Below are positions 11,551 through 64,000 of a stretch of DNA of 64,000 bases, one piece after another (positions within the stretch are counted from its first letter, which is position 1; the number at the start of each line of letters is the position of its first letter). The position numbers and the translations under genes are program-made. The DNA is taken from NCBI GenBank assembly GCA_019915015.1, contig JAHBBC010000018.1, forward strand, positions 868,001 through 932,000. The letters are read 5' to 3'. The notes beneath the pieces are model-generated. The model was not told the origin of the DNA. It searched no databases and saw only the letters and a program-made list of their open reading frames with translations. Source of the DNA: Auriscalpium vulgare (lineage: Eukaryota > Basidiomycota > Agaricomycetes > Russulales > Auriscalpiaceae).

Positions 11551-12399
11551 TGATGAGATGAACCCTGGGGGAGGCCCCGGGAACGTCGATAGAAATGGAG
11601 GGAGCGAGCAGCCAACCGCTGGCCCAAGAGGTAGTGGGTCGGAGGAAGAAACCCAAGATCGCGACCGTGCCCCGAACAAACCACCCAGGACCCCGCGGGT
11701 CCTGCCCTCGTCCTGCGGCTCTCCCTCTCTCTCTCTCTCCGCTCCCGTCCGACCGTCGCACGTTGCGTCTCTTCCCACACTATTCGGTGCGACCCTCCCG
11801 TCTGTCGCCGCCGGTCCGTCCTAGTTGCGGAGTCGCCCTTGCCGTCCGACCGTCCGACCTGTGTCCCCGCGCTTGTACCGTCCGAGTCGCTATCCTGGAA
11901 TATAAACGTCAGTCATAAAACCTACCACACTGTATCACTCCAGTCTGTGGTTGAGTCGGGGCAGCGTAGCCCGTGGTATCGCAAAGGTGGCGCGACCCGG
12001 ATGTCGCTACGACTTCCTGGTTTAAGGCATCGTGTCGGGCTGGTCTGGCGGTATCGCGTCGTGCGGTGCTCTCTGTGAAGCAGGAACGAAAGGTGTAGTC
12101 TCGGGTGTAGGCCCAAGGTCCAAAAGTGTCCCTACAACAAGTCGAATCGCGTCTATATACCGCTGCTTCGTCAGCTCTTCCCACGCGTCTGCGCTCCTAC
12201 GCGTCCTACCAAGTTCCGCGCCCGACCGTTCCGACTCCCTACCTCGGCTCTCCGACTCCTCCCCAGACGCTCGCTCGCTTTGTGCTGTCCCGTGGTCGTG
12301 CCGGTGCCGCGACGCCTGTGGGGCGTCTCGGGGGTGTGTGTCTTGGTGTAGCGGTGTGATTGGTCCTTTTCGGTGCCTGTAGCGCTGCGGGTCCCATCA
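11551..12399 (-). repeat. 3' LTR of element A, 849 bp
   Basis: Same sequence as 25136-25984. Terminal TGATG/CATCA inverted repeats. Contains a CT-repeat near 11720. Small open frames in it are duplicated in the other LTR and are not considered genes. Confidence 0.93.
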
Positions 12400-12411
12400 T
12401 CCTCCCCCAAC
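12400..12411 (-). other. Polypurine tract of element A
   Basis: In element sense the sequence is GTTGGGGGAGGA directly before the 3' LTR start TGATGGG, the expected position for plus-strand DNA priming. The next 25 bp (to about 12435) contain an inverted repeat related to those at 14066, 18188, 44908 and 60002. Confidence 0.8.
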
Positions 12412-12547
12412 TGAGCTACCGACTGCCCTCAGTCGGCGAATCCCCGGATGGCTCCTCCTGATAAAGGCTCCCTCGCGCCGTCTCGATGAGTCGTCAGGTA
12501 GCGTCGCACCGCCCGCCCGACCAACCAACCCCCCCCCACACACCATC

Positions 12548-13775
12548 ATGACCTGGTCTCCCCACACGTACCGTCGCGGTACTCTCTTGCTGTACCACCT
12601 GGGTCGGGCCCCCAGCGCGGACTTCCCGCTCGCAGCAGCCGCCGAAGCGATCGAATCGCGCGAGCGTTGGGCACAGGAGGTGTTGGCTGTCATTGTACGG
12701 TTCCCCTCTTTTCCGCCCCGTTGTCGCGCTAACCGTCCGCTCCCATCGGCTGTAGGAATCCATCACCGATTCCGACCCCAGGCTGATCATCCCCCTCGCC
12801 GAGCGCATCCTCATGCCGATACTCGAGAACGCCATCCTCCTCGTACCCGAGGTCGAGGATCGCTTCCGCTCGTGGGCGGGGCGCTTTCTTCGTCCCGCCC
12901 CGCTCCCTACGACCGAGCTGCACCCGTGGACCTCCGTTGTTGATCGGGTCGACCTACTTGACGCCCCCAAGGTTCGGCTGACCGCGACGCTGGTTGAGGA
13001 GAACTTTTGGGTCGTGTTTCGCAAACGCGGGTGCTCGGTCGCGTCGTACTTGCGCGAGCTCGCCATTTTCCATGCCGCCATCCCCGACGACCGTCCCCTG
13101 GGCAACCAGACGTGGGTCGCGTACGTCCTCCGAGAGGCCTTGGAATGTTCCGCGCTCTCCATTCGCCACTCGCGTGGTGGGACCGCTTTCCTTCCCGACT
13201 ACGTCGCCCGCGAGTCGACCGCTTGGCCCATTTCGCCCCCCACGCAGTACGGTCGCAACCTCGGCGGACTGGGTGCGCGTCTTTTAGCTCGTTTCGAGGC
13301 CGTGTACCGCGAGACCGTCGAGGAGCTCGCTGGGGCTACGGAGAACGTCGCCAATCTGCAAGCCCTTTGGGCCGACGCTCCCTACCTGTTAGCCATCGTT
13401 CGCGACCCCTGCCTCTCCCTCGAGCACGCAACCCGACTCTTCCTGGAGTACGCAGTGACTGCGGCATACGTTCTGCGCCATTTCCCAGCCGCCCCGACCG
13501 AGCCCGACCTTTACACGAACAACCTCTTGGTGACCTTTGTGCGCCATCGTGTATTGTCGGGGCTCCCCGCCTTGCCCGCCGGTGATGGTGTCGGCTTGGT
13601 TGACGACGATGCCGGCGGTGTCGATTCCGACGAGCAGATGCAGGGCGATCCCGTGGACGCCGGGGGTGTCGGGGATGATGTCGCTGTGATGGAGCGTGTG
13701 GTGGTCGGCGATGTCGGCGCGATAGTGGATTACCGCAGCGATAGTGGTAGCGACATCGCGAGCAGTCGTGAGTAG
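12548..13775 (+). CDS. Element A antisense gene 1, 388 aa, unknown function
   Basis: Exons 12548-12694 and 12756-13775 (61-bp intron), 389 codons. It reads opposite to gag-pol and begins 149 bp inside the 3' LTR boundary; a GATAAAGG box lies about 75 bp upstream of the ATG. The protein is predicted mostly helical with an acidic Asp/Gly/Val tail and no signal peptide. It is related to the gene at 45036-46284 in element C: VASYLRELAIFHAAIPDDRP aligns with VESYLHEITELHGAFPTLRP, and LQALWADAPYLL with FRDIWADWPLVL, and both have one intron after about 50 codons. No known domain recognised. Retention of an open frame in two diverged elements argues that it is a functional part of the element. Confidence 0.7.
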
Positions 13776-14065
13776 TGTACCCCTTCTGTAAATGGTCCCT
13801 CCGGCCGCCATGAATCGCACAGAACTGTGGCCCCTGATGTCTCATAGCAATGATCGTCGCGTTTCGCTGCGTGGGCGACTCATAGCGTCGCGCGGTCTCC
13901 GACCGTGTTCTGATGGATCGCGGATTCGGTTGCGCGTGGTCGGCTCTGACTTTGTCTTGTCCCGCTCCCTTCTGGCTACTTGTTCCTCGTGCACCCTGCG
14001 CAGGCTGGTCACCCGTCGCCGAGAAAATCCCTATCTTTCTCCTCGTCGCTCGTGACTGGCCATCC
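13776..14065. other. Spacer between antisense genes 1 and 2
   Basis: No gene supported. Contains 3' flank of gene 1. Confidence 0.5.
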
Positions 14066-14100
14066 TCCCCCCAACTGAAATCTGCGCCTGTCCTCAGACG
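14062..14100. promoter_or_regulatory. Internal PPT-like inverted-repeat motif upstream of antisense gene 2
   Basis: Plus strand reads TCCTCCCCCCAACTGAAAT then CTGTCCTCAG, matching the motif at the 3' LTR border. A TATA-like TACATAA lies at about 14153, 45 bp before the ATG. It could act as a second polypurine tract for the element or as a promoter box for the antisense gene. Confidence 0.5.
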
Positions 14101-14197
14101 CAAATTCTCCGGCCAAACCCCGGCATATCGGGTCGCGGCGGGTTTCCGACGGCCTACATAACGAGTGCGGTCGGTGCGTGCGACCCAGCCTCCGACC

Positions 14198-15379
14198 ATG
14201 TCGTCCAGTTTCACCCTTGAGGCGCGTGCTTTCGCCCTTCTCGGGCTACTCCTCACTCCGCCCGCGATTGACCTGGAGACCGCTCCCGTCGAGACCCTGG
14301 TTCTGGCTCGGGAGGAGTGGGGTCGCAAGGTTGCTACGCTCTACGTAAGTCCTCGCGCTGTCGTTGCGATCCCCGCTCACGTCCGTGTCGCGCTTATCCA
14401 GAATGAAGTGTATAACACTGCGAAGCCATCCGTCCTTCGTCTTGTCCAGGCAATTGTCAGCCCCGTCTTCGAGACGCTGTTCACTGTGTCCCCCGAGTCG
14501 CGCGCCGCGTTTGCTGAATGGGGTGGTAACCTCGTCAGCGACCTCGCGCCTCCGACGTCCGCTCCTCTCGACCCGACATTTTCGGTTCGCCCAATCGCTG
14601 GATTCACCTTCCCGAACAATCGCGACCACTCTCGCCAGCTCTCGCGACTCTGCGAGGGCGCCCTGTGGGCCGCATTTGAGTCGGGCCGCACGTCCGTTCC
14701 CCAGTACCGTCGCAGCCTTGGTGAGCTCTGCTTGGCCGCTCATCCCACCGGTCGCGGAGCGGGCATCGACGCGACAGTCCACGCGGAGTTCATTGCCGGC
14801 ATGAATGCTTGCGCTTCGGCTCTTCAGTGCCTGAACGGCGGGGAAGAGGCCCTCCTGTCCGAGGTCCATCGCCTCTCCTACTCGACCACCGGCATATCCC
14901 TCCCCGACCTCCTGCGTACCCTCGCGCACCCTCTGTCCGATACGCTCATTACCCACACCACCGAGACCGTGGCGACCTTGGCGTCGATCTACGGCACCAT
15001 CGCGCAACTTGCGCGACCCGACGACCGCCGCGCGCGTGGTCGCTGGGGTCCGTATGCCGACGCCTTTGACTCTGCGGATGGGTTCTTGGAGGCCGCCGCT
15101 GCCGCGTATCTGCGCGACGCCTTGCAGTGGTCCACCACTATCGACAGTCTTCATGCGCGCACCGCCATTGAGAGCGCTATCCTCGCGTCGAACCTCCCCA
15201 CCGAGTTATTGGCCGACGTCCACAGCGACCCGACGATGTTCTTGGACGAGGTCGTGACGTTCCGCGCAGTCCCGATGGGTTGGCAAAACGCGCACCGTGG
15301 TCGTCGAGGCGGGGGTGCGACTCGGGGGCGCCTCACTCAGCAGGGGCGTATCCCGCGTGACGATCCTGCCACGCTGTAG
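14198..15379 (+). CDS. Element A antisense gene 2, 374-393 aa, unknown function
   Basis: Starts at the ATG 14198. A GT-AG segment at 14345-14401 (57 bp) is in frame, so the protein is 374 aa if spliced or 393 aa if not; element C has a true intron at the equivalent place, which favours splicing. The protein is helical, rich in Ala/Leu/Thr, with a basic Arg/Gly tail. Element C gene 46568-47802 has the same size, exon layout and basic end, though direct identity is low. No known domain, membrane span or catalytic motif seen. Its position between genes 1 and 3 is the same in both elements. Confidence 0.65.
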   Translation: MSSSFTLEARAFALLGLLLTPPAIDLETAPVETLVLAREEWGRKVATLYVSPRAVVAIPAHVRVALIQNEVYNTAKPSVLRLVQAIVSPVFETLFTVSPESRAAFAEWGGNLVSDLAPPTSAPLDPTFSVRPIAGFTFPNNRDHSRQLSRLCEGALWAAFESGRTSVPQYRRSLGELCLAAHPTGRGAGIDATVHAEFIAGMNACASALQCLNGGEEALLSEVHRLSYSTTGISLPDLLRTLAHPLSDTLITHTTETVATLASIYGTIAQLARPDDRRARGRWGPYADAFDSADGFLEAAAAAYLRDALQWSTTIDSLHARTAIESAILASNLPTELLADVHSDPTMFLDEVVTFRAVPMGWQNAHRGRRGGGATRGRLTQQGRIPRDDPATL

Positions 15380-15870
15380 CGTCGTCGCACTGTCGGAGCG
15401 TCGGGAGATAAAGGGAAAGAAAGAGCCCGCGTTAGTGTAGTGCCTTGTGCCCGCATGTACGTCGTTGAATGCCTCCCAATACGAGTATTGAACTTGCGAC
15501 GCGTTACCCGCTTGTGCGACGCCAGTGTACCGTGGTCGCGCCCCGTGGGAGGGGCGGGCGCCAACGACTTGTGCGATTTCGCTCGCGCCAGCAACACGTG
15601 CCCGCCACGCGGCGTCGGAGCCGCGCGTGGCGTCCCGCACCGGTCCGGGGCATGTCGCGGGATCAAATCAACGATCGCTGATCAGATCGCGGATCGACCC
15701 GGCGTCGTGGGCGCTCGGAGGCAAAACCAGCGCTCTGGCCGGGCCACGCGGCCGGTCGCTCCCACGCACGCACCATTGTTCGTGCGCCTGCGGCGAAGTC
15801 GCCGTCGCCCTTCTTCCCTCTTCCCCTCACCTCGCTCGCTCGCCTTCCCGCTCCCCCGATTCCTCACCCC
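15380..15870. other. Spacer and pyrimidine-rich leader of antisense gene 3
   Basis: No gene supported. The last 80 bp are strongly C/T-rich on the plus strand, like the leader of the related gene at 57896. Confidence 0.5.
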
Positions 15871-17965
15871 ATGGACGCTGCCACCGTCGCCGACGCCACC
15901 GCTACCCGCGCCATGCTGGATCTCCAGCTGGGCTTACTCGGGCCCATGGCGCGTGACGCCACCTCCGAGGCCCAACTCGCGCTGCTGCGCCCGCAAGCGC
16001 GCCAGCTCCTGGTACGTCTGCTCTTCCTGATCTCGCCTTCCTTTCTGACTTGCGATTTCCTAGCGTGCCTACTACGACGCCCGTGGTCGTGGGGTGACGT
16101 TCTCCCCCGAGGCGCGCGCGCGGTACGACGCGCTTGAAGAAGCCGTGCGACCCCCGCCCCTGTTCCTCGACGAGGCGAACGAAGACGACGAGGCTGCGGA
16201 GGCCCCTGAAGCGCCCCAGGCGACCGTGCCGCGGTCCGCTCCGACCGTTGCCACGCCGTCGCCCCTCGTCGGCGCTGGGACGCGTGAGGGCACCGTCGCC
16301 GTGGCCGGCCCTTCCGTTACCCGGCTCCGCCCCAAGGTGCGTGTATCGGCGGTCCTTGTCGTCACCCGCTAACCTTGCCCCTTTCTTTCTGCCCGCTCTT
16401 TACGCAGGCTCGTCGCGTGCTCGCGAACCGCGCGGAGGTGGTGTTGCCGCTCCCGGGGCCGGTCCCGCCGCCGCCTTCTGCCCGCGGGGAGCGCCTCGCC
16501 GCGCGTACCGCCACTGCGGCCGTCCAGCCTCCGTCCCAAGCCGCCGGGAAGCGCCGCGCCTCGCACTCCCCCACACCCCTCTCGTCTCCCCACGCGACCG
16601 AGTCGCCTCAACCCCGGCGCGGTCGCACCGCCAAAAAGGGTCGGCCCGCCCCTCGCCGCCGTCGCAGCCGTTCGTCGACGTCGCCGGGTAGTGGTCTCGA
16701 CGACTCGCTGTCGGAGGCGGTAGACACTGACGGCGACCCCTTGTTCCACCGGTCGGATCGCCGCCCGACGCACACCGAGCGGTACGCTGGTGAGCGCATC
16801 AAGGTGAGCTACCCCCTCCCCATCTCCCCTGCTGTTGCTGACCGTCCACCCTTCCAGACTTCTACCCGCTGCGGCCGCTGCCAGGCTGGTTTCGTGCGCG
16901 GGCCGGTGCGTTGTGAGTTCAAGCCTCACCGCCCCACCAAGTGCATCCGCTGTCGCGCCCAGCGCAAGGGCTGCGGCGGCGCTGTACTCGTGGACGGTTC
17001 GCGCCCTCGCGCCCCTTCCCCCCACCGTTCCCGTGGTCGGTCGGTCCGCTCCCGCGCTCCTTCTCGTGCCCCCCGGCCGCGTTCTGCCTCCCGTCGCGGC
17101 GCTGCGGCGCCTGTGGCGGCGCCCTTCTTCGCCAAGTTCCTTGCGGACTTACTGGCGGCCGCCGACTCTGCAGGTACGTTGCTGCGCCCCTCTTACCCTT
17201 CTCCTAACACTCACCTGTTCTTCCCTCCCTTCAGATTCCCCACGTCGGGCTCGCGACCTCCTCGCGTCCGTGCTGGCGTCGGTGGACGAGGACGCGCGGC
17301 GTTTCGAGGACCTCCCTCCTGCCGACAACTTCTCCGACCATGCCGACTCCATCGCGCTCGTCCGGGCGGAGCTGGCTGCTAGCGCGACGACGCTCAACCT
17401 GTGGCCCTACCGTCACGACCGGCTCCTCGTGCGCCTTGCCCAGCTCGAGCACCAGTTCGGCTCGCGCGTGTCCGCCGACGCTGTGGCTTCCGAGGCCTCC
17501 CGCTCTCCCTCCCTCCGTAGTTCGCCGGTCGCTGGGCCCAGTGGTCACCGGCGCTCTGACTCGCCCACCCTCGCCACCATTCCGCCCAGCTCCGTCGCCG
17601 CCTCTACTCCCGCCGCCCCGATCGTTAGCGATGAGGAGGAGGATGAGCTGGCGCCTGCTCGCGCCCCCTCCGTAGAGTCGCGCGCGTCCCCGGCTCCCGT
17701 GCATCCCGTGCTGCGCACGTATGGTCGCCGGCGCGCTGCTCGTACGCCCGCCGTGTCGGATGGCGCGGAGAGCGCGGAGGACCTTCCCTCGGCCGGCGGT
17801 ATCCCCCTTGCCGCGCCTGCCGATCCAGCGGGTGTCGACGACGAGACGGACGACGACGAAGAGGAGAGCGAGGAAGGCGTGGTCGGAGTCGAGGAGAGCA
17901 GCGAGGAGGACGGTTCCGACGTTGGCGACGCCGTTGAGACCGTGTATATGGACGTCGCTGAGTAG
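15871..17965 (+). CDS. Element A antisense gene 3, zinc-cluster protein, 618 aa
   Basis: Five exons: 15871-16011, 16064-16336, 16408-16803, 16858-17173 and 17235-17965, totalling 619 codons. After a helical N-terminus and a Pro/Arg/Ser-rich region with bipartite basic stretches (about residues 190-235) there is a cysteine cluster, CX2CX10CX8CX2CX6C, at about residues 275-310, then Arg/Ser-rich sequence, a helical segment with heptad-like spacing (DRLLVRLAQLEHQFG) and a long acidic tail. The element C gene at 57896 has CX2CX8CX9CX2CX6C in the same place. The spacing resembles a loosened fungal Zn2Cys6 cluster, so DNA binding in the nucleus is a reasonable inference. It could regulate the element or help select targets; neither is shown. 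Confidence 0.7.
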
Positions 17966-18235
17966 GTCGACCCTTTCTCGCATTTTTCTCTGTTTCTTGT
18001 ATTCTCTTGTTTTTGCGTTACTTTTCTTGTTGTTTTTCGTGCTGTCGTCTCTACGCATGCTTGCCCAAATAGAATTTTAGTGTCCCCCCCCACCACAAGA
18101 GGAGAAAAGAAATAAGTTGAACCAATAGTCTCAGTGTACTGTCCGTGGTGTATCTCCTTAACGTAATACCTAGTCCAGTCGTATCGCGTCCTCCCCCGAC
18201 TGAAACTGCTGACCTCAGCAGTCGCGCACGGCCGG
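17966..18235. other. Convergent 3' ends; internal PPT-like motif
   Basis: Lies between the tail of antisense gene 3 and the tail of pol. The motif CCTCCCCCGACTGAAACTG with a following CTCAGCAG arm starts at 18192; in element sense it is a G-rich purine tract. The T-rich tract at 17990-18045 may be part of an antisense 3' UTR. Confidence 0.5.
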
Positions 18236-21200
18236 TCAGGCGACACTACCGTCTTCCGCGCTGTTACTCGCTGTGTCCGACGCGTCGCTGTCTATGCTGC
18301 GTGATTCCTGTGCTTGGGCGTCGGAGCCAGGCTGCCCGAGAAGCTCGTTTAGTCGTCGGGCGGGTATGTCGATGAACTCCGGTAGCGGAGGAAGCGTGAT
18401 GTGTGGTCGCGCGAAGTACGGAATGACGCGAAACTCCGCAGTGGGCCTGTCGAAGACCGCCCCGTGCATATCACACAGGACGTACGGTCCACCGCGTCGC
18501 CGCCCAATTACGATGAACGGACCGTCGTAGCGAGGCAGCATCTTGCGGTCGAGTGATTTCTCGAACTGCGTGAAACGTACCAGGACAAGGTCGCCTCGTT
18601 GGAAGCCGTAGTTCTTGATCGACGCTTCGTGGTCGCGCTCGAAAATCAGCGCATCATGCCGCCGCTTGTCAAACACTTTCGAGTGGAGCGTACGGAGCTG
18701 GGTGCGGCGCTTCTGAAGTGCGACAGCCCGTCGCGCGATTAAATCCGTCGTCGACAGTATTGAGTCAGGCGGTGGTAGGAGATACGTCGCCTCTACGATA
18801 TCGAGGGGCATCAATGCCTGCGTGCCAGTCGCCGCGAAGTAGGGGGAGCAGCCCATACGCCTGCGCGTTGTGATCCTGTCCGCCCAGAATACCGAGTGTG
18901 CGACCGTGGCCCACTTGCTCGCGTCACCGTCGGCGGCCTTGTACAGGGCCTGTCGGACGTCGAAATGCGATCGCTCTACGATTCCGTTGGATCGCGAGTT
19001 ATAGCCTGAGATGCGGATGTGCTGCACGCCGTAATCTTCCTCGAGGTGCTTCATCGCTGCTAGGTACGGCGTCCCGTTATCCGTTACGATTTCCCGGAGC
19101 GCTCCCCAGCGACAGAGTACGTCCTCGAATATCCATCGCGCGAGCGACTTGGCATTTTCCTGACGCAGCATGCGCCACTCTGGGAAATGCGAGACCGAGC
19201 ACCTGCCTTGTACGATGTATTTGAAACCTCGCGAAGCCGGCATGTGCATGGTATCAGCGTACATCTTGGCGAACAGCGGCGCCGGGGTCGCGACCGTTGG
19301 GGGAATGAGCACGTGCTTCACCTGTCGCACTTGACAAATGTGGCACGATCGGACAAACCACGCGACGTCGCGGTCCATGTAGGGCCACCAGAAGCGTTCG
19401 AGGAGAAACATCTTGGTCGGGTACGCGCCGCGATGGCCGACGTCGTCGTGGCACGCTTTTAAAGCCCCTATGCGGCGTTCCGGTGCTAAAACGAGCTGGT
19501 GGCGCCCCTGCGGCTCCTTGCGAAAGAGGCTCGTGCCATCGAGGAAGAACTCAGTGCAGTACCTTAGGAACGTCGCATACTCTTGGTCGGCGAGGCCCTC
19601 CGGTCGTTGGAGCGTGTTGTGCCATTCCCGCACTCGAACGAGTCGCTCGTCGGCCTGCTGCGCCTTGATGTCGCGGTCAACGGCGTCGTACGACAACTCT
19701 GTCGGAGCTGCCTGGGTGACGAACGTTGCGATCGCGGCCCTTGGTTGGTCGCGCGGATCCCCCGACCGTGGCCTTGTACTGCGCGGTACGTATGCGTTCA
19801 CGAGGTGAATGAAGCCATACATTGCGTCGACCCAATCCTCGAACCCGTCGTGCTCATTCTCTGCCACGTCGCCCGGTTGGCGCCTTCGTCGCGACATCCC
19901 GTCAGGCCCATGAAACAGGCCGGGCACGTGAACTAGGACGAAATGGAACATTAAAATGGCAATAATCCACCGATTCATGCTGGCTGAGGGTTCAATATCG
20001 GGGTTGTCGAGCATGCCCTTAATGTAGCGTGCGTCGACTTCCACGACCATGTTCCGCACTCCGATGAGATATATCTTCAGCGCGCGGAGCGCCCGAAACA
20101 GGCCGTATAATTCTAACTTTGGTTGCGAAAAACGCGCCTCGCGATCGTTCAACGCGATGGACCCAAACCGTGCGTACCGACGCTTCTTGCGACTCTTCGG
20201 ATCGTCGGCGTCAGCCTGGCACAGCAAGAACCCGACCGCAATAGGAGACGTATCGACCGCGAGGATAACCGGTTCGCCCGACTGATAGTCGATCGGTTTC
20301 AGGGCTGGCGACTCCAGCAACGCGCTTTTGAGATCTTCCATAGCTGCTAATTGTTCCGCTCCGAATTCGAATGGCACATCTTTCCTCGTAAGGTGCGTGA
20401 GCGCATGCGCGCGATGTGCGAAATGGTGGATGAAGATCCTCAGCACCCCGACCGTCCCGAGGAACGCCCGCACATCGGACAGGTCTTGACATGGCCCCCA
20501 ATTCACAATCTTAGCCACCCGTTGTTCGTCGGGGATCCGCCCGTCCCTCGTGCAGCGGTGTCCGACCACGACAATTTCGGGCGCGCACAAAATAGTCTTC
20601 CAACCCGAAAACGTCCCGCCCGAATAACCCATGCGCTGTACGACGCGGTTGAGATTCTGAAAGTGTTCCCAGACAAATCGGCGGATGCCCTCGTTGTCAG
20701 CGATTGTCTCGTACTTCCCCTGGTCGTCCTTGTATTCGCTCGCGGGGCCCTTGACCGGTACGTCATCAATAAACGGTATCGTGACGTGGGGAATTTCCGG
20801 CCTCAGGATATGTGTGACGTCGTCGTGGAAGATAGGCACTGAATTCGTCCAGCCCATCGGTAGTGTTACCAACCGCAGCGCGCCGTAAGGGGTCTGGAAC
20901 GTAGTGAGGTCGCGCGACGCTGGGTCCAATGCTCGCTCGTCGTATCCGACGTACAGATCCAGCATCGCGCCGCAAGCCCGACCCGCGAATTGCTCGGCCA
21001 GTTGGTCGGTAAACGGGGGCACACCGGAATGAGCTATCGTGACGGCGTTTAACGGCTCCAGGCTGTGCACTATGCGCAGGCTCGTTCCATCCTTTTTGAC
21101 CACGCAGAACCACCGCGACCTATACGACGAATTGGATGGTTCGTAGACGTTCGCGGCCAACTTCCGACTGATTTGTTCCATGACTTGGTCGTAGATTCCC

Positions 21201-21895
21201 GGCGGGATCGGTATGTTGCGTTGTACCCATGGCGTGTGCGGTACGACGGGTATCGTGACCGGCGGAAAGAAATCTTCGCGGAAGTGGCCTCGCTCGCTGT
21301 CGTCCCACGCGAACGCACCGTTGTGCTCGCACATAAAATGGTGCATCAGCTTGCGTTCCTCCTTCCACAAGAAGTCCCCCTCGTGAACTACGTCGAATTG
21401 GTCGCGGCGCTCCTCGGTGTAACGCCCCGTCGGCCGGAAGTCAGGGGGCTTCGTTGGTAACTTGGGTAGTGTCGCTAGCGGGTCGCCTCGTATGTCGCGT
21501 ATGATTCTGAACTGCCCAGGCAAGTCGGCTAGTACTGGCTTCACTTTTAGGTGGGCTGGCTTATACTTTTTCTTGGTCGCTGCGAAAACTGCGCGTGCCC
21601 GCGCGCTGCTTGGCAGCGACTTACAGTCGCGAAATTCCTGTTCGCCTGCGAACGATGGCACCCCGGCTGGGGCGAGAAAGAAAACGGGCGCCGATGGAAC
21701 GTCTAAAGTCGCGTCGGTCGGCCGATCAAATATTGGAGGGGTAGATTCTGGGAGATCGCAAAATGATAAATAGGTTGCTCGTAACTCTTCCGGCGAACTA
21801 GAGGAGTCGAAGGGGACCACGGCTTCCACGGAAATAGGATCGGCGGCGTCGCCCGTGAACTCGAGGACGAGCGCCACTTCCGCCTGGTCGTCCAA
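18236..21895 (-). CDS. Element A Pol: reverse transcriptase, RNase H, integrase, about 1219 aa
   Basis: Single long frame. RT core lies at about residues 225-420, with the catalytic box FIDD near 375 (in place of YXDD). RNase H follows at about 545-675 (AVDTS ... ELYG ... GPDGMSRR). Integrase has an HHCC zinc finger near 815-860 (HDDVGH ... CHIC) and catalytic residues in ADT (about 880), TDNG (937) and VERSH (973), then a GPY/F module near 1127. It works in the cytoplasmic particle (cDNA synthesis) and nucleus (integration). No ATG lies near the 5' end; the frame is -1 relative to gag and overlaps its stop at a T-run, so expression as a Gag-Pol frameshift product is likely. Confidence 0.95.
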   Translation of the reverse strand: MDDQAEVALVLEFTGDAADPISVEAVVPFDSSSSPEELRATYLSFCDLPESTPPIFDRPTDATLDVPSAPVFFLAPAGVPSFAGEQEFRDCKSLPSSARARAVFAATKKKYKPAHLKVKPVLADLPGQFRIIRDIRGDPLATLPKLPTKPPDFRPTGRYTEERRDQFDVVHEGDFLWKEERKLMHHFMCEHNGAFAWDDSERGHFREDFFPPVTIPVVPHTPWVQRNIPIPPGIYDQVMEQISRKLAANVYEPSNSSYRSRWFCVVKKDGTSLRIVHSLEPLNAVTIAHSGVPPFTDQLAEQFAGRACGAMLDLYVGYDERALDPASRDLTTFQTPYGALRLVTLPMGWTNSVPIFHDDVTHILRPEIPHVTIPFIDDVPVKGPASEYKDDQGKYETIADNEGIRRFVWEHFQNLNRVVQRMGYSGGTFSGWKTILCAPEIVVVGHRCTRDGRIPDEQRVAKIVNWGPCQDLSDVRAFLGTVGVLRIFIHHFAHRAHALTHLTRKDVPFEFGAEQLAAMEDLKSALLESPALKPIDYQSGEPVILAVDTSPIAVGFLLCQADADDPKSRKKRRYARFGSIALNDREARFSQPKLELYGLFRALRALKIYLIGVRNMVVEVDARYIKGMLDNPDIEPSASMNRWIIAILMFHFVLVHVPGLFHGPDGMSRRRRQPGDVAENEHDGFEDWVDAMYGFIHLVNAYVPRSTRPRSGDPRDQPRAAIATFVTQAAPTELSYDAVDRDIKAQQADERLVRVREWHNTLQRPEGLADQEYATFLRYCTEFFLDGTSLFRKEPQGRHQLVLAPERRIGALKACHDDVGHRGAYPTKMFLLERFWWPYMDRDVAWFVRSCHICQVRQVKHVLIPPTVATPAPLFAKMYADTMHMPASRGFKYIVQGRCSVSHFPEWRMLRQENAKSLARWIFEDVLCRWGALREIVTDNGTPYLAAMKHLEEDYGVQHIRISGYNSRSNGIVERSHFDVRQALYKAADGDASKWATVAHSVFWADRITTRRRMGCSPYFAATGTQALMPLDIVEATYLLPPPDSILSTTDLIARRAVALQKRRTQLRTLHSKVFDKRRHDALIFERDHEASIKNYGFQRGDLVLVRFTQFEKSLDRKMLPRYDGPFIVIGRRRGGPYVLCDMHGAVFDRPTAEFRVIPYFARPHITLPPLPEFIDIPARRLNELLGQPGSDAQAQESRSIDSDASDTASNSAEDGSVA

Positions 21896-21903
21896 CGACG
21901 CCT

Positions 21904-24900
21904 CTAGAGCCGAAAATCCCTGCGCTCGCCGGCGCTCTGAACGATGCGACGCGAGCCTCGCTCTACTGTCGGGACGGTCGCCGTCGCTTGAGTGTTGGGA
22001 TCGGTGATCGTGACGGTCTGTCGCTCATCGACAAAGTTGCGGACTATACTCCCAGTGAGGACGTCGAAGGGCCTCCCTAGCAGGATGTCGTAGGCCGGAG
22101 AACGTATGACGTGTATCTGTACGTAGAGCGTGATGTCGCCTAGCTTTAGCGCTACGTTGCGGGCTAGCCCGAGGGATTTGTCAATCGAGCCGTTGGCGGA
22201 AAGCATGTCCAGTGTGATCGCGGGATCATATGCCAGGCCGAGAAAATGACAAACGTCTTCGGACATGGAGATGACCTGCGACCCTGGATCCAGGATAGCC
22301 TCAATGTGCGCTTGGTTATCCACCAAGGGCAGGACCGCTCGCAATGCCGATGACTCTTTTGCGACCACCAGCGGGGCCGGTTTCTCGGCCGAGGCACTCA
22401 TCAACGTCAGCATCGGGTCGGAGAGCACCAGCGACCCGCGAGGCGGCACCGCTGGCTGGCTCTGTATGGCCTGCAAGAACGACGACGGCATGTGCGAGGT
22501 GTATCCCCGCGCTCGATCTCTCTCCTGCTCGCGCTCTTCCTCGTACAAGTCGCCGGGTAGGTCCGACCACTCCTTGGTAGGCCCTTCCCCTTCCGCTACG
22601 ACCGTGTGTAGGACCGCTACTGGGGAGTCCCCGCTGGACAGTACCGGGGCCGCTATGCGTCGCGGGGTGATAGCGTATCGCAACTGGGAACGTACTTCTG
22701 GCGCCAGCGACAGTAACTCGCTCTGTGTCAGAGTGACGGAAGTCTCCATCGCGCGGCCGTAGACTTCCTTCGCGACTTCCTCACTATGGATGGGCGTGTC
22801 CTTGGTATAGGCGGCGACTGGTTTCTTCCCTTTGTCTGGTCGGGACGCGTCCCCGACGGGTATGTAGGTTGCGTCGGGTACGGAGGCGAAAGGATGGATG
22901 GGTTCCGGCTCTATCTCCTCGGGGTCCTTCTCGACTGTCGGCTCACCCTCGCTCTCTTCCATCGCCGCTTCCGCATCCTCTGGACCTTCGGGCACCGCGA
23001 ACGTAACCTTCGGCCGCTTGGCCGTGAATTTCGACGGAGATATGACCACCTCAGGGACTAGCCTCTTGGATCGCACTCTCTCCCCGGGCAGCGGACCGAT
23101 TGGTGGCGGTAACTCTCCGTTGCGAATCGCTGCCTCCCTTCGGGCCCGGCCGGCGTTCCTCTGCTCCTTCATGAGGGTTAATACCGCCATCTCTTGACGC
23201 AACTCCTCGAGTCGCTCGTCGTCCGTCAACGGCGGGATTAACTGGATGAGCCCGGCGACCGGCTGGTCGCGCGCAGGTCGGAGCGGGTAGTCGGTGACGG
23301 CGATGGGACCTGTCGATGCCAACATCATTGTTTCCGTCGCGTTGCCCGCGACTCTGGCCGCGACGTCGGCGCGCAGCCCGGACGGGTCCGTGCGATAATA
23401 TTCGTCTACCCTCGCTTGAATCGGGCCTAGCCCAAATGGCACTGGCCTGCCGTTCTTGAGTACCACCTGGTTCATCTCGTTGCGTACCACCCGCCCCGTC
23501 GCTATGTAGTCTTGCAGGACGAGGCATTCGCGGATGAAGTGCTCGGGACCGTTGCAGAACGAGCACCTGGCGCCATCCTGTCCCGGGGCCGGGCGAGGAC
23601 GATCGAAACGAGCGGCCGACGCCATCATCGGGCCCGGTGGCCCGCGCGTGTACGCCGACGGCTGCGGGCCTGCGTTACTCATCCCCATCGCATCGGCTCT
23701 CCCCGCGCTATACGCTTTCGCGATCTGCTCGGCCGCCTTCTCCATCAGAGCGGCAAACTGTTCGACCTTGATCGCCGGTTCTTCCGCCTTGACGGCCACG
23801 GGTTGGGACAAGTCGGCCAGACCCGCGGGGACGCTGAGCCCTGCCGATCGCGGGGTGCTCGACGTGCCGTGCAGCACGTACCGCGCCGCTTCCACTATTT
23901 GGTCCATCGGGTACGGGCCGTCGCGATCGTGGTCGGGATACTTCAGCTGCAGCCGCTGCTCTATCCTATCTTGCAGTCCCTTCTGGAATCCACGCAAGAA
24001 AGTGTAGTCGCGGTCGCGCTCGGAGATCCGCTGCCGCCCTATAAGAAACTGGGAGATCGCGTAGAAACCGCGATAGTATTCCCCAACGTCGCCGATGGTC
24101 GTGATGCCTCGGCGGGCTGTCTCGGCGACGAGCTGATCGAGGTCGCCCATCGTGTATTTGCGCTCCTCGTCCGCTCCGGGGTATAGCGCTATGATCGCGG
24201 TCACGAACTCTTCGAACGTCGCATTGCCCGCGTACTGGGGTCGGCTTTGCCACTGGTCTGCTGTAAGGACGTCCAGGTATCGCGTGGCGTGCTCCTTCTT
24301 CTCCTGGTCCTGGCCGTCCTCGATACCCGCCCGCGTGAACAAGTGCCTCAACTCCGCGAAATAGCGTTGCAGCTCGCGCGGCTTAAGATTGTCGAACTTA
24401 GGGGCTTGGCGGTCGCCACGGGTAGGCATCGGAGTGGCCATGGTCGTGCGACGGGGTAAACGCGATAACGGAGTACTGGATTGCGATGTGGGAGAAACTG
24501 GTCGGGAAACCTGTGCGGCCGCTCCACGCCCGTCTCCTGATAAACCTCCGTGCGTTCCGACGTTTCCGCGGTCGGAAGCCAAGCGGTCGCTGTCGGAAGG
24601 CACCTGTGCCTCGTCTCGGTCCTCATCAATCAGCGCAGCCACTTCGGGCTCCGATTCCGACGGGGTAAGCTCCGGCGACGACCATTGTCGCATCGCTCCG
24701 CCAGTCAGCAACTCGATCGACGCCTCATTGACGTCCAGGAGCTCCTGATGGAGGGACCGTCTACCATCCCAACCGTGCTCCGACTCCTCCGATTGGACAG
24801 GGCCTGCCTCCGCGTTTTGATCGCCGGGAGCCTCGCCCGCAGCATCCCCGTCGTTCTCGGGTGCTGCGTCCGACACACCCGATGCCTCGCCGTCGTCGTT

Positions 24901-25086
24901 TTCGTTGTCGCCCTCGGCGCCTTCAGCGCTGGAAGTCGCGCGCTCTTCGCCCGACGCCCCACCTTCCGACGATGCGAGGTGTCCTGGCATGGACTCCGCC
25001 CGCTGACTGGTCGAGTACTCCGACGGGGCCGATCGGGGCGGTGCGCGTCGAGTGGGCTCTACGATAACCCTCGCCTTTGGTGCCAT
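21904..25086 (-). CDS. Element A Gag-protease, 1060 aa
   Basis: Starts with MAPKARVIVEP. An acidic, low-complexity N-terminal third precedes the capsid-type helical region. A perfect CX2CX4HX4C zinc knuckle lies near residue 507 (CSFCNGPEHFIREC), which binds the element RNA. The C-terminus is a retropepsin-like domain with ILDPGSQ near 933 and ILLGRPFD near 1004. The catalytic triplet reads DPG where DTG or DSG is usual. The frame is intact. It ends at 21904, and pol continues in the -1 frame through GATTTTCGG. Confidence 0.93.
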   Translation of the reverse strand: MAPKARVIVEPTRRAPPRSAPSEYSTSQRAESMPGHLASSEGGASGEERATSSAEGAEGDNENDDGEASGVSDAAPENDGDAAGEAPGDQNAEAGPVQSEESEHGWDGRRSLHQELLDVNEASIELLTGGAMRQWSSPELTPSESEPEVAALIDEDRDEAQVPSDSDRLASDRGNVGTHGGLSGDGRGAAAQVSRPVSPTSQSSTPLSRLPRRTTMATPMPTRGDRQAPKFDNLKPRELQRYFAELRHLFTRAGIEDGQDQEKKEHATRYLDVLTADQWQSRPQYAGNATFEEFVTAIIALYPGADEERKYTMGDLDQLVAETARRGITTIGDVGEYYRGFYAISQFLIGRQRISERDRDYTFLRGFQKGLQDRIEQRLQLKYPDHDRDGPYPMDQIVEAARYVLHGTSSTPRSAGLSVPAGLADLSQPVAVKAEEPAIKVEQFAALMEKAAEQIAKAYSAGRADAMGMSNAGPQPSAYTRGPPGPMMASAARFDRPRPAPGQDGARCSFCNGPEHFIRECLVLQDYIATGRVVRNEMNQVVLKNGRPVPFGLGPIQARVDEYYRTDPSGLRADVAARVAGNATETMMLASTGPIAVTDYPLRPARDQPVAGLIQLIPPLTDDERLEELRQEMAVLTLMKEQRNAGRARREAAIRNGELPPPIGPLPGERVRSKRLVPEVVISPSKFTAKRPKVTFAVPEGPEDAEAAMEESEGEPTVEKDPEEIEPEPIHPFASVPDATYIPVGDASRPDKGKKPVAAYTKDTPIHSEEVAKEVYGRAMETSVTLTQSELLSLAPEVRSQLRYAITPRRIAAPVLSSGDSPVAVLHTVVAEGEGPTKEWSDLPGDLYEEEREQERDRARGYTSHMPSSFLQAIQSQPAVPPRGSLVLSDPMLTLMSASAEKPAPLVVAKESSALRAVLPLVDNQAHIEAILDPGSQVISMSEDVCHFLGLAYDPAITLDMLSANGSIDKSLGLARNVALKLGDITLYVQIHVIRSPAYDILLGRPFDVLTGSIVRNFVDERQTVTITDPNTQATATVPTVERGSRRIVQSAGERRDFRL

Positions 25087-25110
25087 CGGGTTGCTGAGCG
25101 GTTGACACTA

Positions 25111-25131
25111 GCCCCCTCGCGGTGGGCTCCA
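25111..25131 (-). other. Putative primer binding site of element A
   Basis: In element sense the LTR end is followed by TTTG and then TGGAGCCCACCGCGAGGGGG. The leading TGG complements a tRNA CCA end. Element B has TGGTGACCACCGCAGGGGG in the same place. The primer tRNA was not identified. Confidence 0.6.
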
Positions 25132-25135: not shown

Positions 25136-25984
25136 TGATGAGATGAACCCTGGGGGAGGCCCCGGGAACGTCGATAGAAATGGAGGGAGCGAGCAGCCAA
25201 CCGCTGGCCCAAGAGGTAGTGGGTCGGAGGAAGAAACCCAAGATCGCGACCGTGCCCCGAACAAACCACCCAGGACCCCGCGGGTCCTGCCCTCGTCCTG
25301 CGGCTCTCCCTCTCTCTCTCTCTCCGCTCCCGTCCGACCGTCGCACGTTGCGTCTCTTCCCACACTATTCGGTGCGACCCTCCCGTCTGTCGCCGCCGGT
25401 CCGTCCTAGTTGCGGAGTCGCCCTTGCCGTCCGACCGTCCGACCTGTGTCCCCGCGCTTGTACCGTCCGAGTCGCTATCCTGGAATATAAACGTCAGTCA
25501 TAAAACCTACCACACTGTATCACTCCAGTCTGTGGTTGAGTCGGGGCAGCGTAGCCCGTGGTATCGCAAAGGTGGCGCGACCCGGATGTCGCTACGACTT
25601 CCTGGTTTAAGGCATCGTGTCGGGCTGGTCTGGCGGTATCGCGTCGTGCGGTGCTCTCTGTGAAGCAGGAACGAAAGGTGTAGTCTCGGGTGTAGGCCCA
25701 AGGTCCAAAAGTGTCCCTACAACAAGTCGAATCGCGTCTATATACCGCTGCTTCGTCAGCTCTTCCCACGCGTCTGCGCTCCTACGCGTCCTACCAAGTT
25801 CCGCGCCCGACCGTTCCGACTCCCTACCTCGGCTCTCCGACTCCTCCCCAGACGCTCGCTCGCTTTGTGCTGTCCCGTGGTCGTGCCGGTGCCGCGACGC
25901 CTGTGGGGCGTCTCGGGGGTGTGTGTCTTGGTGTAGCGGTGTGATTGGTCCTTTTCGGTGCCTGTAGCGCTGCGGGTCCCATCA
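25136..25984 (-). repeat. 5' LTR of element A, 849 bp
   Basis: Identical by eye to 11551-12399; begins TGATG and ends CATCA. Confidence 0.93.
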
Positions 25985-43571: not shown

Positions 43572-44252
43572 ATGGATCCTCGATCGCGAACGCAAAATTA
43601 CCAGTCAAACGGCTACAATTTTCCATCTCAACCAGCACGTCTTTCGAATGGGAACCCTCCGCAACTTCCTCCTCACCTGCCCATGTGCGACAACCGAGTT
43701 CTGCCGCCTCCACTTTCTCAACATAACTATCCGTCGCTGCAGCCTCAAAATCCCCCTTATCCCTCCTTCAGCCACCCTCGCTATGTTCAATCCCCAGCTT
43801 TGACGTCGTCCTCTCATGTGCCGTCCTCGTTGACATACGCGCGACCTCCTCAGCAATATCCCGCTGCCCTGCAACTCCCTCCGCCGGCAGAGTCAGCTCG
43901 CTACACTCAAAGCCCGTACTCCTACCCAACCGCCAGACACTCCGCGCATGCCTTCCCCGCTGCGCACGTTCTACAGCCTTCATTCCATCGCACACAGTCG
44001 CCTCTCACACAGCCTCCTCTCACGCGTCAACCTCTCCTCCCCACAGCATCGGCGCTCGCATACATGCCTCTGGCTACGCCTCCCCAACCCCCTCCATCCC
44101 CAAATCAGTTCATCAATATGGACTCGAATTCCTTTTCTCCCCCGTCGCCGACAATGTTTCAACCCTCCGCTACCCGACCTTCGCAGCCAGCACCCTCACC
44201 ATCCCCGCGCATCCGCACCCTGCCTCCAGTACCCTCACCATCCCCGCGCTGA
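43572..44252 (+). pseudogene. Pro/Ser/Gln-rich gene truncated by element C
   Basis: Open from the ATG 43572 for 226 codons up to the LTR border at 44249; the first LTR bases (TGA) supply a stop. The protein is almost wholly disordered, rich in Pro, Ser, Gln and Tyr, with a short near-direct repeat (ccctcaccatccccgcgc) just before the break. Such sequence is typical of N-terminal regions of fungal transcription or RNA-binding factors, but nothing specific can be said. The rest of the gene should lie beyond the right end of element C, outside the window. Confidence 0.5.
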
Positions 44253-44907
44253 TACGCTATCACCCGGGACGGACCCTAGCGGGGCGTGCGGCGAGTGCCT
44301 CACAGGACAACAACCACCAACACTGCCTCCTATACGTCGCGATCCAGTCCGGGTGACTAGTCTTGCTGAGGGGGGGAAGGTGTTCGTGTCGCTGTTGCGC
44401 TTCGTGCCCTCCCCGCGGTCGTGCGGGGCCACCTCCTACCGCCTAAACACCAAACTAAACACTCACCTGCCTGGGGATGCCCTCTGCGGGATCCTCCTCC
44501 GAGTGCTTCGCACCCGTGTGCGAAGCGTCCGCCTATGGGCCGTCGCACCCCCTCTTGCCTGTCCGCCTGCCTACCTGTTCCCACATCGGTGGGGTCCTTC
44601 CTTCCTAAGTCTGGTAGCACCTCAGGCTACAGTTTCTGTGAGGTAAAGGGTGTGGGTGGCTTGCGCCGCCCACAGGTTGATTGGGTTGCTACGTCTCGCG
44701 CAGCTCCCTAAGTAGTGGCTCTACCTACGTCGCTAAGCCCTCCCGATCTAGCCCGTTCCGGTGATCCGTTCCGTCGCCAGTCCCGGTTGCTCCTGGGTCG
44801 CCGGACCACGTTCCCATCACCCCCGCTCCCGCGACCCTGCGCCTCGCCTGCTGCTTCCCCGTCTCGCGACGTCTCGCTACACGCTTGCCCGCGGCCTGAA
44901 CCTATCA
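44250..44907 (-). repeat. 3' LTR of element C, 658 bp
   Basis: Limits inferred from TGATA/TATCA ends, from the PPT directly after 44907, and from loss of the upstream coding frame at 44250. The partner LTR is not in the window, so the left limit is less certain. Left flank ends GCGC. Confidence 0.7.
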
Positions 44908-45035: not shown

Positions 45036-46284
45036 ATGTCCCTCCCCGCAGCGTCTGCCACCGCCGACAACCTCGACCTCCTCCGCCTGTTGACGCAGGC
45101 CCCCTTCGCTGGTTTTGACCTTGGGGATGCCGAACGGGAGGTTGCGCTACGTCTAGAGTGGGCCGACAAAGTCAACCAGCTCGTGGTGCGTGCTGGTCCC
45201 CGACCGCGTCTTTTCCCGGCTTGGCTGATGATGAACTCAATTCCAGACCCTTTCTTCAATCCGCGCGTCCCGCAGCCTGCGCGATCTTGCCTTCCACTTC
45301 ACCTCGCCGATCCTCGAGTTCATGGTGAAGCTCGTTCCAGCGTCCGCCCCTCTCGCCCAGCGCTTCGAGGGCACCCTCATGCGTACCCTCCCCGACTCAG
45401 CGCGCGCCAGCCCGCGGTGGTCCCAGATGTTCTCCCCTTTCCCTGCCGACGCTACCGACGCGGAACTCCACGTCTTGATCACCATCGTGGAGGCTGGGCT
45501 CTGGACCGTGTACTACTTCGGAGACGGTTCTGTCGAATCCTACCTCCATGAAATCACGGAGTTGCATGGCGCCTTCCCCACCCTGCGTCCTCAGGGGATG
45601 CAGAGCTGGCTCCTACGTGATTTCGACGCCCGGGCCGTCCATGGGATGTTTGTTATTACCCGCGAAGACGCCGTGTGCCGCGCCCTGGCCTACCACGTCC
45701 GTGGTGCCTCCAGCTCCCCCCACTCTCGTGCCTACGCGGGCCGCCTCACCACGGGCGTGGTGTACTACCTATTGGGGGGCCTCGCGGAGGACTCGGTGGA
45801 TATGTTACGGGACTTTACCACCATTTCCGAGGCCTTCGACACGTTTCGCGATATTTGGGCGGACTGGCCACTGGTGTTGGATCGCCTCGACATGCGCTGG
45901 GCCGCGATGGCAACCTGTATGGGCGGGATGCTGGACGCATGGGGATTAGGGTCCCGCCTCCTGGCCAACCTCCAGCCCGCAGACTTCCTGGTCCAGGATA
46001 TCAGCGTGGCCTCGATTCGCGCCATCGAGCAGATCAGTTCTGCGCGCCTCTCGCACATCTCCTCCTCCCAAGCCATAGCTGAGATACCCCTAGGCTTCGA
46101 TGCCATAGTCCATCCCTTGGACCAGCCGGGCCCTCTTCCCTTCCCCGCGCACCCCACGGTACCAGCGCCGACGGCCCCCTCCGCGTCTCCTACCTACGCC
46201 GGGGAGATACCGCCGCCCATTGCCAGCTCGGAAGAAGTCGAGGAGGGGGAGGTGATCGAGCTTCTGATGGAGCGCGAGGAATAG
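45036..46284 (+). CDS. Element C antisense gene 1, 395 aa
   Basis: Exons 45036-45185 and 45247-46284 (61-bp intron), 396 codons. A TATAAGG box lies 67 bp upstream. Helical protein with an acidic Glu-rich end (EEVEEGEVIELLMEREE). Related along its length to element A antisense gene 1 (12548-13775), with the shared block V-SYL-E---H--(F/I)P---P-G-Q-W and the WAD-P-(V)L block, and the intron in both after about 50 codons. Unknown function; soluble by composition. Confidence 0.68.
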
Positions 46285-46567: not shown

Positions 46568-47802
46568 ATGGCCTTTTCCAAAAACCCTCAACGCCCCAGT
46601 CCGTCCGACTACCTCCTCCACATGCAGGCCGTCCTTCTCCGCGCGTTTTCGCGTTTCCGGCTGTACCAGCTGTTGATACATCCGGTTGAGGTGCCCTTGC
46701 CTGGTGCCGACGCTTCCTCATTTCCCGCGGCCGCCGTTGCCTGGCTTCAGGAGATCTCCGACCTATTGGTGCGTCGTCCCGCGGCCCTCTTTTCCCTCAT
46801 CCCGGCCTCGTACTGACGTTGTCTTCGCTTCTTCCCCCTTTTCAGCAGGACCATCGCGAGACGTCGCATTTTACCCTACCGGCCCTCGCGTCCATGACCG
46901 TCGTCTCGACGCTCTCCTACCTAGCGGAGCGCTTTCCCGAAACGTTCGAACAAACCGCCCCCATTCGCGCGAATATCGTAGGAAATATTCCGTTCGGAGG
47001 GGACAACGCCCCGGGGCAGCCACCCAGCGTCGCTCTGCTTCCTCACGTGGTCCATGTGGACTCCTTGGCCCACCTGGTGGAGCGCTCTGTTTGGTTGCTG
47101 TACCGTCACCAACTTCACGGCCGGGCAACTTTCGAGGTCAACTTGGCAGCGCTGTTCGGCCCCGAGTTTGCCCCCCGTCCCGACGGCCTTGCCACCCGTG
47201 TTGCCGAGTTATTCCTTCGCGACCTCGATCGTTTGAGTGACGACCTCGACCACGCCGACGGGCTGGTCGGGGCCCTCATGCTCCCCTTGAACCGCGCCGT
47301 GATCGGAATGACCCACCCCCGCGACATTGGCGTCCTCGACTTCCTTGCGGCCGCGAGTCCCTCGTTGCAGGCTGCCCATCGTGCGAACGTCCGTGAAGCC
47401 GCCGACTATCTCGTTCCCGGCCTCAAGTTGGTCGCGGAGCTTCGCGACTTCGTTTGGGCGGACCAATTGAACGCCAGCCACCTGCGCCACGCCGTCACTC
47501 GCCTCGAAGGCACCGCGGGAAAGCTGCTGTACGATGCCTGCGAAGTTGCCGCGGTCCTCGACCACCTCGCCGGTGCCGGTCCTATGCGCCGTATGCTTAC
47601 CGCCCTTCCCTTCCCGCCGCTTACTCACCGAGTCATCCGCCGCGGCTCTATCGCGTTCTCGTGGGGGGTCCCCAACCTTGTTGAGGTCGTGGGCCCGAGG
47701 CCTCCTGATGCCCTGAGTCGACGGGCTGGTCGTAGGAATGGGGGTAACCGCGCCCGGACTCCCGCGCCCAATGGTGCGTCTGGGTCCGGTGCGCCCGCGT
47801 AG
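46568..47802 (+). CDS. Element C antisense gene 2, about 385 aa
   Basis: Exons 46568-46768 and 46846-47802. The start at 46568 is a choice: ATGs at 46331, 46346 and 46622 are also in frame, and a TATATGA box at about 46549 would favour 46622. Helical protein with a Leu-rich second exon and a basic Arg/Gly tail (SRRAGRRNGGNRARTP). Same position, size, intron placement and tail character as element A antisense gene 2, but weak direct similarity. No recognised domain. Confidence 0.6.
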
Positions 47803-63833: not shown

Positions 63834-63838
63834 ATCCT

Positions 63839-64000
63839 CTAGTCGCGAAAACCCTCCACCCCCTGCTTCTGGGTTCGCGAGATGCGCTTGCGGCCGCGTG
63901 GAATAGTGGGGATTGACGCCATGACTCCCGTGTTTGGGTCCGTGATCGTGATTGTCTGCCTCTCGTCTGCAAAGTTTTGCACGGTACTTCCCGTGAGAAC
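63839..64000 (-). CDS. Element C Gag-protease, C-terminal end (partial)
   Basis: The last 53 residues, matching the end of element A Gag (ERQTxTITDPNT shared). The stop is at 63839-63841. The remainder, including the protease active site and zinc knuckle, lies beyond the window. Confidence 0.85.
   Translation of the reverse strand, partial: VLTGSTVQNFADERQTITITDPNTGVMASIPTIPRGRKRISRTQKQGVEGFRD

Follow-up and report, generated by a model that had tools for sequence, protein, structure and literature searches.

We found that a Ty3/Gypsy clade of long terminal repeat (LTR) retrotransposons in the fungus Auriscalpium vulgare has, as read from its sequence, an antisense spliced module consisting of a paralogous gene pair, here called g1 and g2, and a third gene, g3, whose predicted protein bears a six-cysteine cluster. 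The module was analysed in element A, which lies in a 64,000-nt stretch of contig JAHBBC010000018.1 (GC content 61.5%; genome 51.6 Mb). This whole stretch is referred to as the window, and all coordinates are positions in it.

An antisense module between pol and the 3′ LTR of element A

Element A is a Ty3/Gypsy LTR retrotransposon that occupies positions 11551-25984 on the minus strand. Between its pol gene and its 3′ LTR lie three spliced plus-strand genes, opposite in direction to gag-pol, with GT..AG introns of 52-71 bp.

12548..12694, plus strand: g1 exon 1, 147 nt
12756..13775, plus strand: g1 exon 2 (g1 is 388 aa in 2 exons)
14198..14344, plus strand: g2 exon 1, 147 nt, intron position as in g1
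14402..15379, plus strand: g2 exon 2 (g2 is 374 aa in 2 exons)
15871..16011, plus strand: g3 exon 1 (g3 is 618 aa in 5 exons, with 4 introns)
16064..16336, plus strand: g3 exon 2 of the gene model
16408..16803, plus strand: g3 exon 3, basic and proline-rich
16858..17173, plus strand: g3 exon 4, six-cysteine cluster C-x2-C-x10-C-x9-C-x2-C-x6-C
17235..17965, plus strand: g3 exon 5, acidic C-terminus

The predicted proteins of g1 and g2 are paralogues, aligning at 25% identity over 199 aa by BLASTP (E 3e-11 in one search and 9e-9 in another), and in both genes the intron follows exactly 147 nt. In the backbone that carries the module, the gag-protease and pol frames are open.

11551..12399, minus strand: 3′ LTR, 849 bp, 100% identical to 25136-25984, TG..CA
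18236..22024, minus strand: pol frame, stop to stop, open; RNase H, integrase H2C2
21904..25107, minus strand: gag-protease frame, stop to stop, open
25114..25131, minus strand: putative primer binding site (PBS), a PBS-like sequence beside the 5′ LTR
25136..25984, minus strand: 5′ LTR, 849 bp, identical to the 3′ LTR, TG..CA

GCGG flanks the LTRs on both outer sides as a target duplication, and a terminal polypurine tract (PPT) adjoins the 3′ LTR at 12400. Pfam matches were obtained for Asp_protease_2, an RNase H-like domain (555-690) and Integrase_H2C2 (854-901). RVT_1 gave no match at 1e-3 in the Pfam scan, and the element was assigned to Gypsy because its RNase H is located ahead of the integrase zinc domain. 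A scan of IMG/VR with pol returned no match. Thus the Ty3/Gypsy element with LTRs, target duplication and PPT that an earlier note on this DNA had described was recovered, together with its three multi-exon genes opposite gag-pol. The PBS it had also named stays putative, and its 16-mer core recurs at 242 genome sites versus 0 for a reversed control (genome copy counts here and below are lower bounds). These 242 copies exceed the number that family A and the two related families described below (F2 and C) appear to account for, and this surplus makes further families of the clade likely. Elsewhere in the window, short tandem or dispersed direct repeats lie outside the elements at 2531-3133, 27278-27968 and 8618-9557.

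The module recurs in family A and in related families

All three genes were found on the opposite strand, within 9.5 kb, at 27 of 35 family-A pol places. Exon 2 of g2 is open at many family-A places, and the 43 family-A g2 places have g1 nearby in 35 cases and g3 nearby in 37. Among the places listed there was no free-standing g1-g3 set (6 of the 43 g2 places lack a paired g3), and no intact host progenitor of the three genes stood out. A lack of other copies with open frames, which the earlier note had named as part of what would refute its reading, is thus not observed: such copies exist in family A, and the cassette extends to two further families.

The first of these is F2, which has at least nine places; at its locus L031, g1, g2 and g3 follow in the same order, antisense to a pol 75-78% identical to that of element A. 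Its cassette proteins are 31-34% identical to those of element A, and over the two further families together the range is about 20-34%. The second, family C, is represented in the window by element C, which runs beyond the window end and in which three antisense genes occupy the positions that g1, g2 and g3 have in element A.

44250..44907, minus strand: element C 3′ LTR (matched part), 658 bp, 99.8% identical to a 5′ LTR beyond the window
45036..46284, plus strand: element C g1, exons 45036-45185 and 45247-46284
46622..47802, plus strand: element C g2, exons 46622-46768 and 46846-47802
57896..59590, plus strand: element C g3, exons 57896-58024, 58081-58707 and 58763-59590, six-cysteine cluster
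60066..63956, minus strand: element C pol, 69% aa identity to the pol of element A

Element C g1 matches that of element A at 28% (8e-16), and its g3 matches at 25% (1e-5) and shares the cysteine pattern. Exon 1 of g1 or g2 measures 147 nt in five of the six genes of A, F2 and C, and 150 nt in element C g1; the value for element C g2 depends on a start at 46622 that was chosen over 46568 since it yields 147 nt. Copies of family C are numerous. At 38 places or more its g1 has its full length, no inner stops and an identity of at least 97% (67 of 117 rows belong to family C, the remainder to A, F2 and one further), and the same holds for g2 at 44 places or more (50 rows). Since these copies are young, their open frames say little alone. 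In a check for g3 variability within family C, the best 39 of 75 rows for g3 exon 3 are 93-100% identical; a copy on C20 that scored 78% is about 98% identical in two frames and thus frame-shifted, and one on C69 matches at 46-65% across several frames.

Between g2 and g3 of element C another Gypsy element, element B, is inserted at 47887-57696. Its 1285-bp LTRs differ at one position, GCGC lies on both sides and its gag has DUF4100. The pol of element B is about 38% identical to that of element A over 618 aa, and the interval from pol to the LTR measures only about 170 bp and holds no antisense cassette. A further locus, L040 (C19:155800-164800), is F2-like, with g1 at 85% and g2 exon 1 kept, followed by a long gag-like frame that is apparently another inserted element.

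Three more distant relatives, reached via the PBS and with a pol about 60% identical to that of element A, were also compared. In two of them, L042 and L043, the interval from pol to an identified 3′ LTR contains one antisense six-cysteine frame, immediately preceded by an acceptor-like site; these gene models are partial and their homology is drawn from the pattern. In the third, L044, the LTR lies directly behind a shortened pol and there is no such interval. The six-cysteine spacing is common to five families. The single frame of L042 and L043 suggests that g3 is ancestral and that g1 and g2 were added afterwards, with L042 and L043 possibly retaining the ancestral state of the cassette.

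The antisense genes evolve as coding sequence

Long open reading frames (ORFs) alone are weak evidence in so GC-rich a window, where the other strand over the same region also has frames of 334 and 319 aa. The substitution pattern is more informative. Between g2 of class A and that of class B (L037), 212 differences fall at codon positions in the proportion 40/21/151 (p 5e-31), with a synonymous divergence (dS) of 0.91, a non-synonymous divergence (dN) of 0.07 and a ratio of the two (omega) of 0.08. Differences between g1 of element A and L035 are distributed 6/6/24. Pairs of g3 among A, L032, L033 and L034 gave omega values of 0.22-0.35 at dS 0.72-1.02, and the g3 alleles compared are 60-81% identical in exons and 48-65% in introns, with splice sites kept. 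A and L035, which share a g3 class, differ in g3 by 7 synonymous and 16 non-synonymous changes, and an omega of 0.88 from so few is no basis for a judgement; L035 g2 is interrupted and was left out of the selection counts.

Proteins annotated by others bear on the gene models as well. Protein P0006 of A. vulgare fits the L032 allele of g3 through all four junctions, and P0002 and P0005, which have consecutive gene numbers on the same longest contig, resemble g1 and g2, both appearing damaged. When protein databases were searched by shared words, homologues among the best 7997-8000 candidates scored were solely Auriscalpium vulgare proteins (3, 2 and 1).

Two sets of observations pull the other way. 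Element C g2 shows hardly any similarity to the other g1 and g2 proteins (its best E is 3e-4, with F2 g1, and g2 of element A gives 0.3) and was assigned from its position and exon 1 length. Between A and F2, the codon-position counts are 188/188/233 for g1 and 187/152/200 for g2 (p about 0.03, near saturation), with omega for these genes at about 0.5-0.72, and this weak signal between families means that purifying selection is well shown within family A alone. Nevertheless, codon-position bias, omega, kept splice sites, recurrence in other families and the match to P0006 together set g1-g3 apart from chance frames, and we regard them as almost certainly a maintained protein-coding module.

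Hairpin-polypurine motifs lie at the cassette borders

A motif in which a hairpin precedes TCAGTTGGGGGGAGGA or a closely related sequence on the pol-sense strand recurs at the cassette borders, with three sites in element A, three at like places in F2 and two in element C.

12400..12436, minus strand: motif 1, terminal PPT with upstream hairpin, adjoining the element A 3′ LTR
14063..14100, minus strand: motif 2, hairpin and PPT-like copy, about 135 bp upstream of g2
18190..18222, minus strand: motif 3, hairpin and PPT-like copy, directly behind element A pol
60004..60040, minus strand: element C motif 3, behind element C pol

Motif 1, at the LTR, is the terminal PPT, and motif 3 occupies the site expected for the PPT if the cassette were absent. 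A short form of the pattern has 4 matches in the window versus 0.01 expected, and a longer form has 159 in the genome versus 0 in a control. When the eight sites of the three families were aligned on their invariant CTG..CAG core, 92.9% of stem cells were paired, with 11 both-side changes, a level reached in 0 of 500 shuffles (arms chosen by eye).

Folds calculated for single sites are mixed. The hairpin is within the minimum-energy fold at three of six sites (A motifs 2 and 3, F2 motif 1) and outside it at A motif 1 and F2 motifs 2 and 3; another pairing wins at A motif 1 and F2 motif 3, the fold of F2 motif 2 is no better than those of shuffled sequences, and fold z-scores are about -0.5 at A motif 3 and F2 motif 2. 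No motif 2 was found ahead of element C g2. On balance, the reading of the internal motifs as extra PPTs is plausible but tentative. Sireviruses, Athila4/Calypso and Ty1 (PPT2) also have internal PPTs, which, in the part of the source consulted, are discussed for plus-strand priming or recombination (PMC2829016).

Exchange of modules and the alleles of g3

The identity between family-A copies is not uniform along the cassette. L032, L033 and L034 are 98-100% identical to element A in g1 and g2 exons, versus 60-81% in g3 exons and 48-65% in g3 introns, with divergence setting in near 15800 and ending near motif 3. L035 has the converse arrangement (g2 exons 79-82%, g3 exons 98-100%), switching near motif 2. 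Identity thus breaks near 14.1, 15.8 and 18.1 kb. We then compared the g3 tail at 30 loci around pol, which single linkage at 90% placed in five clusters (17, 6, 4, 2 and 1 loci; the single-locus cluster, L024, is near a contig end and may represent a different junction). Between cluster representatives the g3 tails are 48-75% identical, while the 1500 bp ahead of pol (gag) are 99-100% and pol 96.4-99.6% identical, the pol differences lying mainly in its second half. At least four allele lineages of g3, with dS of 0.7-1.0, are therefore borne by near-identical backbones.

Class pairs of g2 and g3 could be assigned at 37 of the 43 g2 places, taking the best-matching row for each copy as its g3 class: A/A 11, A/other 17, B/A 8 and B/other 1. 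A four-gamete argument was dropped, as the combination of g2 class B with a non-A g3 is one partial copy (C8), and exchange is for that reason argued mainly from the identity breaks. On these breaks, modules of different elements have very probably recombined, and we infer template switching between co-packaged RNAs as the simplest account. P0006 belongs to the L032 class of g3, so that this class is shared with another genome. Separately, L036 (C23:38050-42060) is a family-A copy in which a deletion starts early in g2 and reaches the g3 cysteine exon, and in which g3 ends in a different 3′ untranslated region; it is an internal deletion and recombinant derivative.

Why old g3 alleles should sit on young backbones can be explained in two ways. 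The diversity may well be a neutral relic, left when a single successful gag-pol backbone acquired by recombination the 3′ ends of subfamilies that are now extinct, with no selection for variety in g3. Mosaic breakpoints that also cross the second half of pol fit such a history, as do deletion or recombinant copies such as L036. It accounts less readily for the persistence of four or more old g3 lineages on backbones that agree to 99-100% in gag and to at least 96.4% in pol, from which it follows that g3 lineages outlived pol lineages; no equally old gag-pol copy was found, identities dropping from 95% to 78% among the best 37 of 630 candidates. The second explanation, which we put forward as a doubtful but consequential one, is that g3 (with g2) is an exchangeable specificity module whose old alleles are swapped because rarity pays. 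The advantage of rarity may be escape from host recognition or silencing, or from control by resident copies in a manner resembling heteroimmunity. If so, a retrotransposon accessory gene would be under balancing selection, and if g3 variety is selected, retrotransposons would have something like the immunity regions of phages.

A proposed regulatory role and its alternatives

Taken together, the cassette is probably best explained as an antisense accessory module that is exchanged between elements and regulates or de-represses the element carrying it. Under this proposal g1, g2 and g3 would each be transcribed from their own promoter on the strand opposite gag-pol, for which TATA-like words upstream of two of the six genes (A g2 and C g1) are weak support. 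Their antisense placement would leave the introns unspliced in the genomic RNA, and the introns would in this way survive retrotransposition; engineered reporters with reverse-oriented introns use the same principle. The g3 protein would act in the nucleus on element DNA or chromatin, with g1 and g2 as its partners, and jointly they would regulate or de-repress the element. Plus-strand DNA synthesis would start from the hairpin-PPT motif at the 3′ LTR and perhaps also from the internal ones, and modules might be joined at these motifs when they are exchanged.

As for the proteins themselves, a role as nuclear regulators or anti-silencing factors is conceivable, and we advance it with reserve. 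The cysteine cluster, basic middle and acidic tail of g3 point to a nuclear nucleic-acid-binding factor. Between A and F2 the cassette has a dN of 0.78-0.81 versus 0.19 for pol, and this faster divergence would fit a protein that interacts with host defence or with target sites of its own, as do the VANC proteins discussed below. Several results count against such a role. g1-g3 gave no Pfam match at cut-off and no accepted Pfam or PDB match indicating function (full proteins were scanned at E≤1, exons and relatives at E≤10). The g3 cysteine cluster fits no known DNA-binding family, and despite its C-x2-C..C-x2-C-x6-C ends, exon 4 and its relatives had no Zn2Cys6 (GAL4-type) Pfam match at E≤10. 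The AlphaFold model of g1 exon 2 is all-helical at low confidence (mean predicted local distance difference test score 57). An allele-specific LTR target for g3 was considered and discarded: none was visible, the LTRs of elements with different g3 alleles being 96-99% alike.

Among the alternatives, the one that fares best, although we think it rather unlikely, is that the products function within the particle or during trafficking, as Gag partners or in an Env-like or movement-like capacity. g1 and g2 have no recognised domains and look helical in a low-confidence model, and in both F2 g2 and element C g3 a single stretch reaches a Kyte-Doolittle mean of 2.0-2.1 over 19 residues, where 1.6 is the customary threshold for membrane segments, so that these two proteins may have a membrane role. 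In element A, however, no stretch exceeds 1.53, the hydrophobic stretches of the relatives are not common to all, antisense spliced expression is separate from gag-pol, and g3 appears nuclear. A second alternative, that the antisense RNA itself is active through double-stranded RNA or transcriptional interference and the proteins are secondary, is improbable: RNA silencing can draw on antisense transcripts from LTR elements, as proposed in the portion of PMC7264820 consulted, but selection acting on codons and the retention of splice sites show the proteins to be important. Finally, that the cassette is passive cargo (a nested transposon, captured host genes or chance ORFs in GC-rich DNA) is hardly credible, for while nested insertions are common here (element B within element C) and long chance ORFs occur on the other strand, the position, strand and order of the genes are identical across three families, purifying selection acts in family A, the Pfam scans found no transposase-like domain and the listed places hold no free-standing gene set, the g2 places without a paired g3 notwithstanding.

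An accessory antisense module would also show how introns persist in a retrotransposon, namely by being antisense to the genomic RNA. In the literature, so far as consulted, what antisense accessory genes do for LTR elements is described as unknown. In the fungal clade described here, elements are intact, very recent and present in many copies, they fall into independent families, and alleles have been swapped naturally, so that conservation, exchange and function become directly testable.

Comparison with known systems

Antisense accessory genes as such are already known, from plant Retand and Grande and from brtn of the fungal element Boty. The earlier note had suggested that a three-gene antisense cassette in a fungal Gypsy lineage might be new, and this is upheld in part. 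A fungal Gypsy element with an additional antisense gene had been described, Boty (BcGypsy1) of Botrytis carrying brtn (Zhao 2011, cited in PMC7264820 and PMC8365987, which were consulted in part). Among the matches listed from the open-access PubMed Central literature, there was no fungal three-gene spliced antisense cassette, nor the multi-gene, spliced, allele-swapping form as a whole. The paralogy of g1 and g2, the like cassette in element C, the hairpin-PPT repeats and the allele swapping go beyond that note. Boty differs in having one antisense gene and an ascomycete host; it is compared with g1-g3 by its description in the citing papers.

The internal motifs resemble the multiple PPTs of Sireviruses, the linker PPT of Athila4/Calypso and PPT2 of Ty1 in being polypurine tracts beyond the terminal one. 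Sireviruses and Ty1 are Copia elements and Athila4/Calypso are plant Gypsy elements, whereas element A is a fungal Gypsy element. The upstream PPTs of Sireviruses, in the part of the account consulted, have no inverted repeat, in contrast to the covarying hairpin kept here at each PPT copy.

A working analogy for g1-g3 is VANC of the Arabidopsis VANDAL elements, a fast-evolving, transposon-encoded anti-silencing factor that acts on repeats in its own element (PMC5735166, consulted in part). VANDAL is a DNA transposon, and the analogy is one of role.

The closest structural parallels, in the portions of the sources consulted, are plant Retand, Grande gene23, RIRE2 and PvRetro13, which likewise have coding regions antisense to gag-pol in the interval between pol and the 3′ LTR. 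In Retand these regions measure 2.9-6.6 kb and occur in most recent copies (PMC11963269). A DNA-related regulatory role has been proposed for the antisense ORFs of plant Gypsy elements, and the Grande antisense protein localises to the nucleus, gene23 having its own promoter (PMC11963269, PMC7264820). The TRP28 domain occurs in 97% of Retand clusters, whereas TRP28 (PF04195) was absent from the Pfam results of g1-g3 (E≤1) and of their exons and relatives (E≤10). The main texts of PMC11963269 and PMC7264820 nowhere use the word 'intron'; the genes described here are three and spliced. Compared with the plant elements, then, the module of element A and its relatives is distinguished by its fungal host, by a pair of paralogues, by a six-cysteine protein and by the exchange of allele modules.

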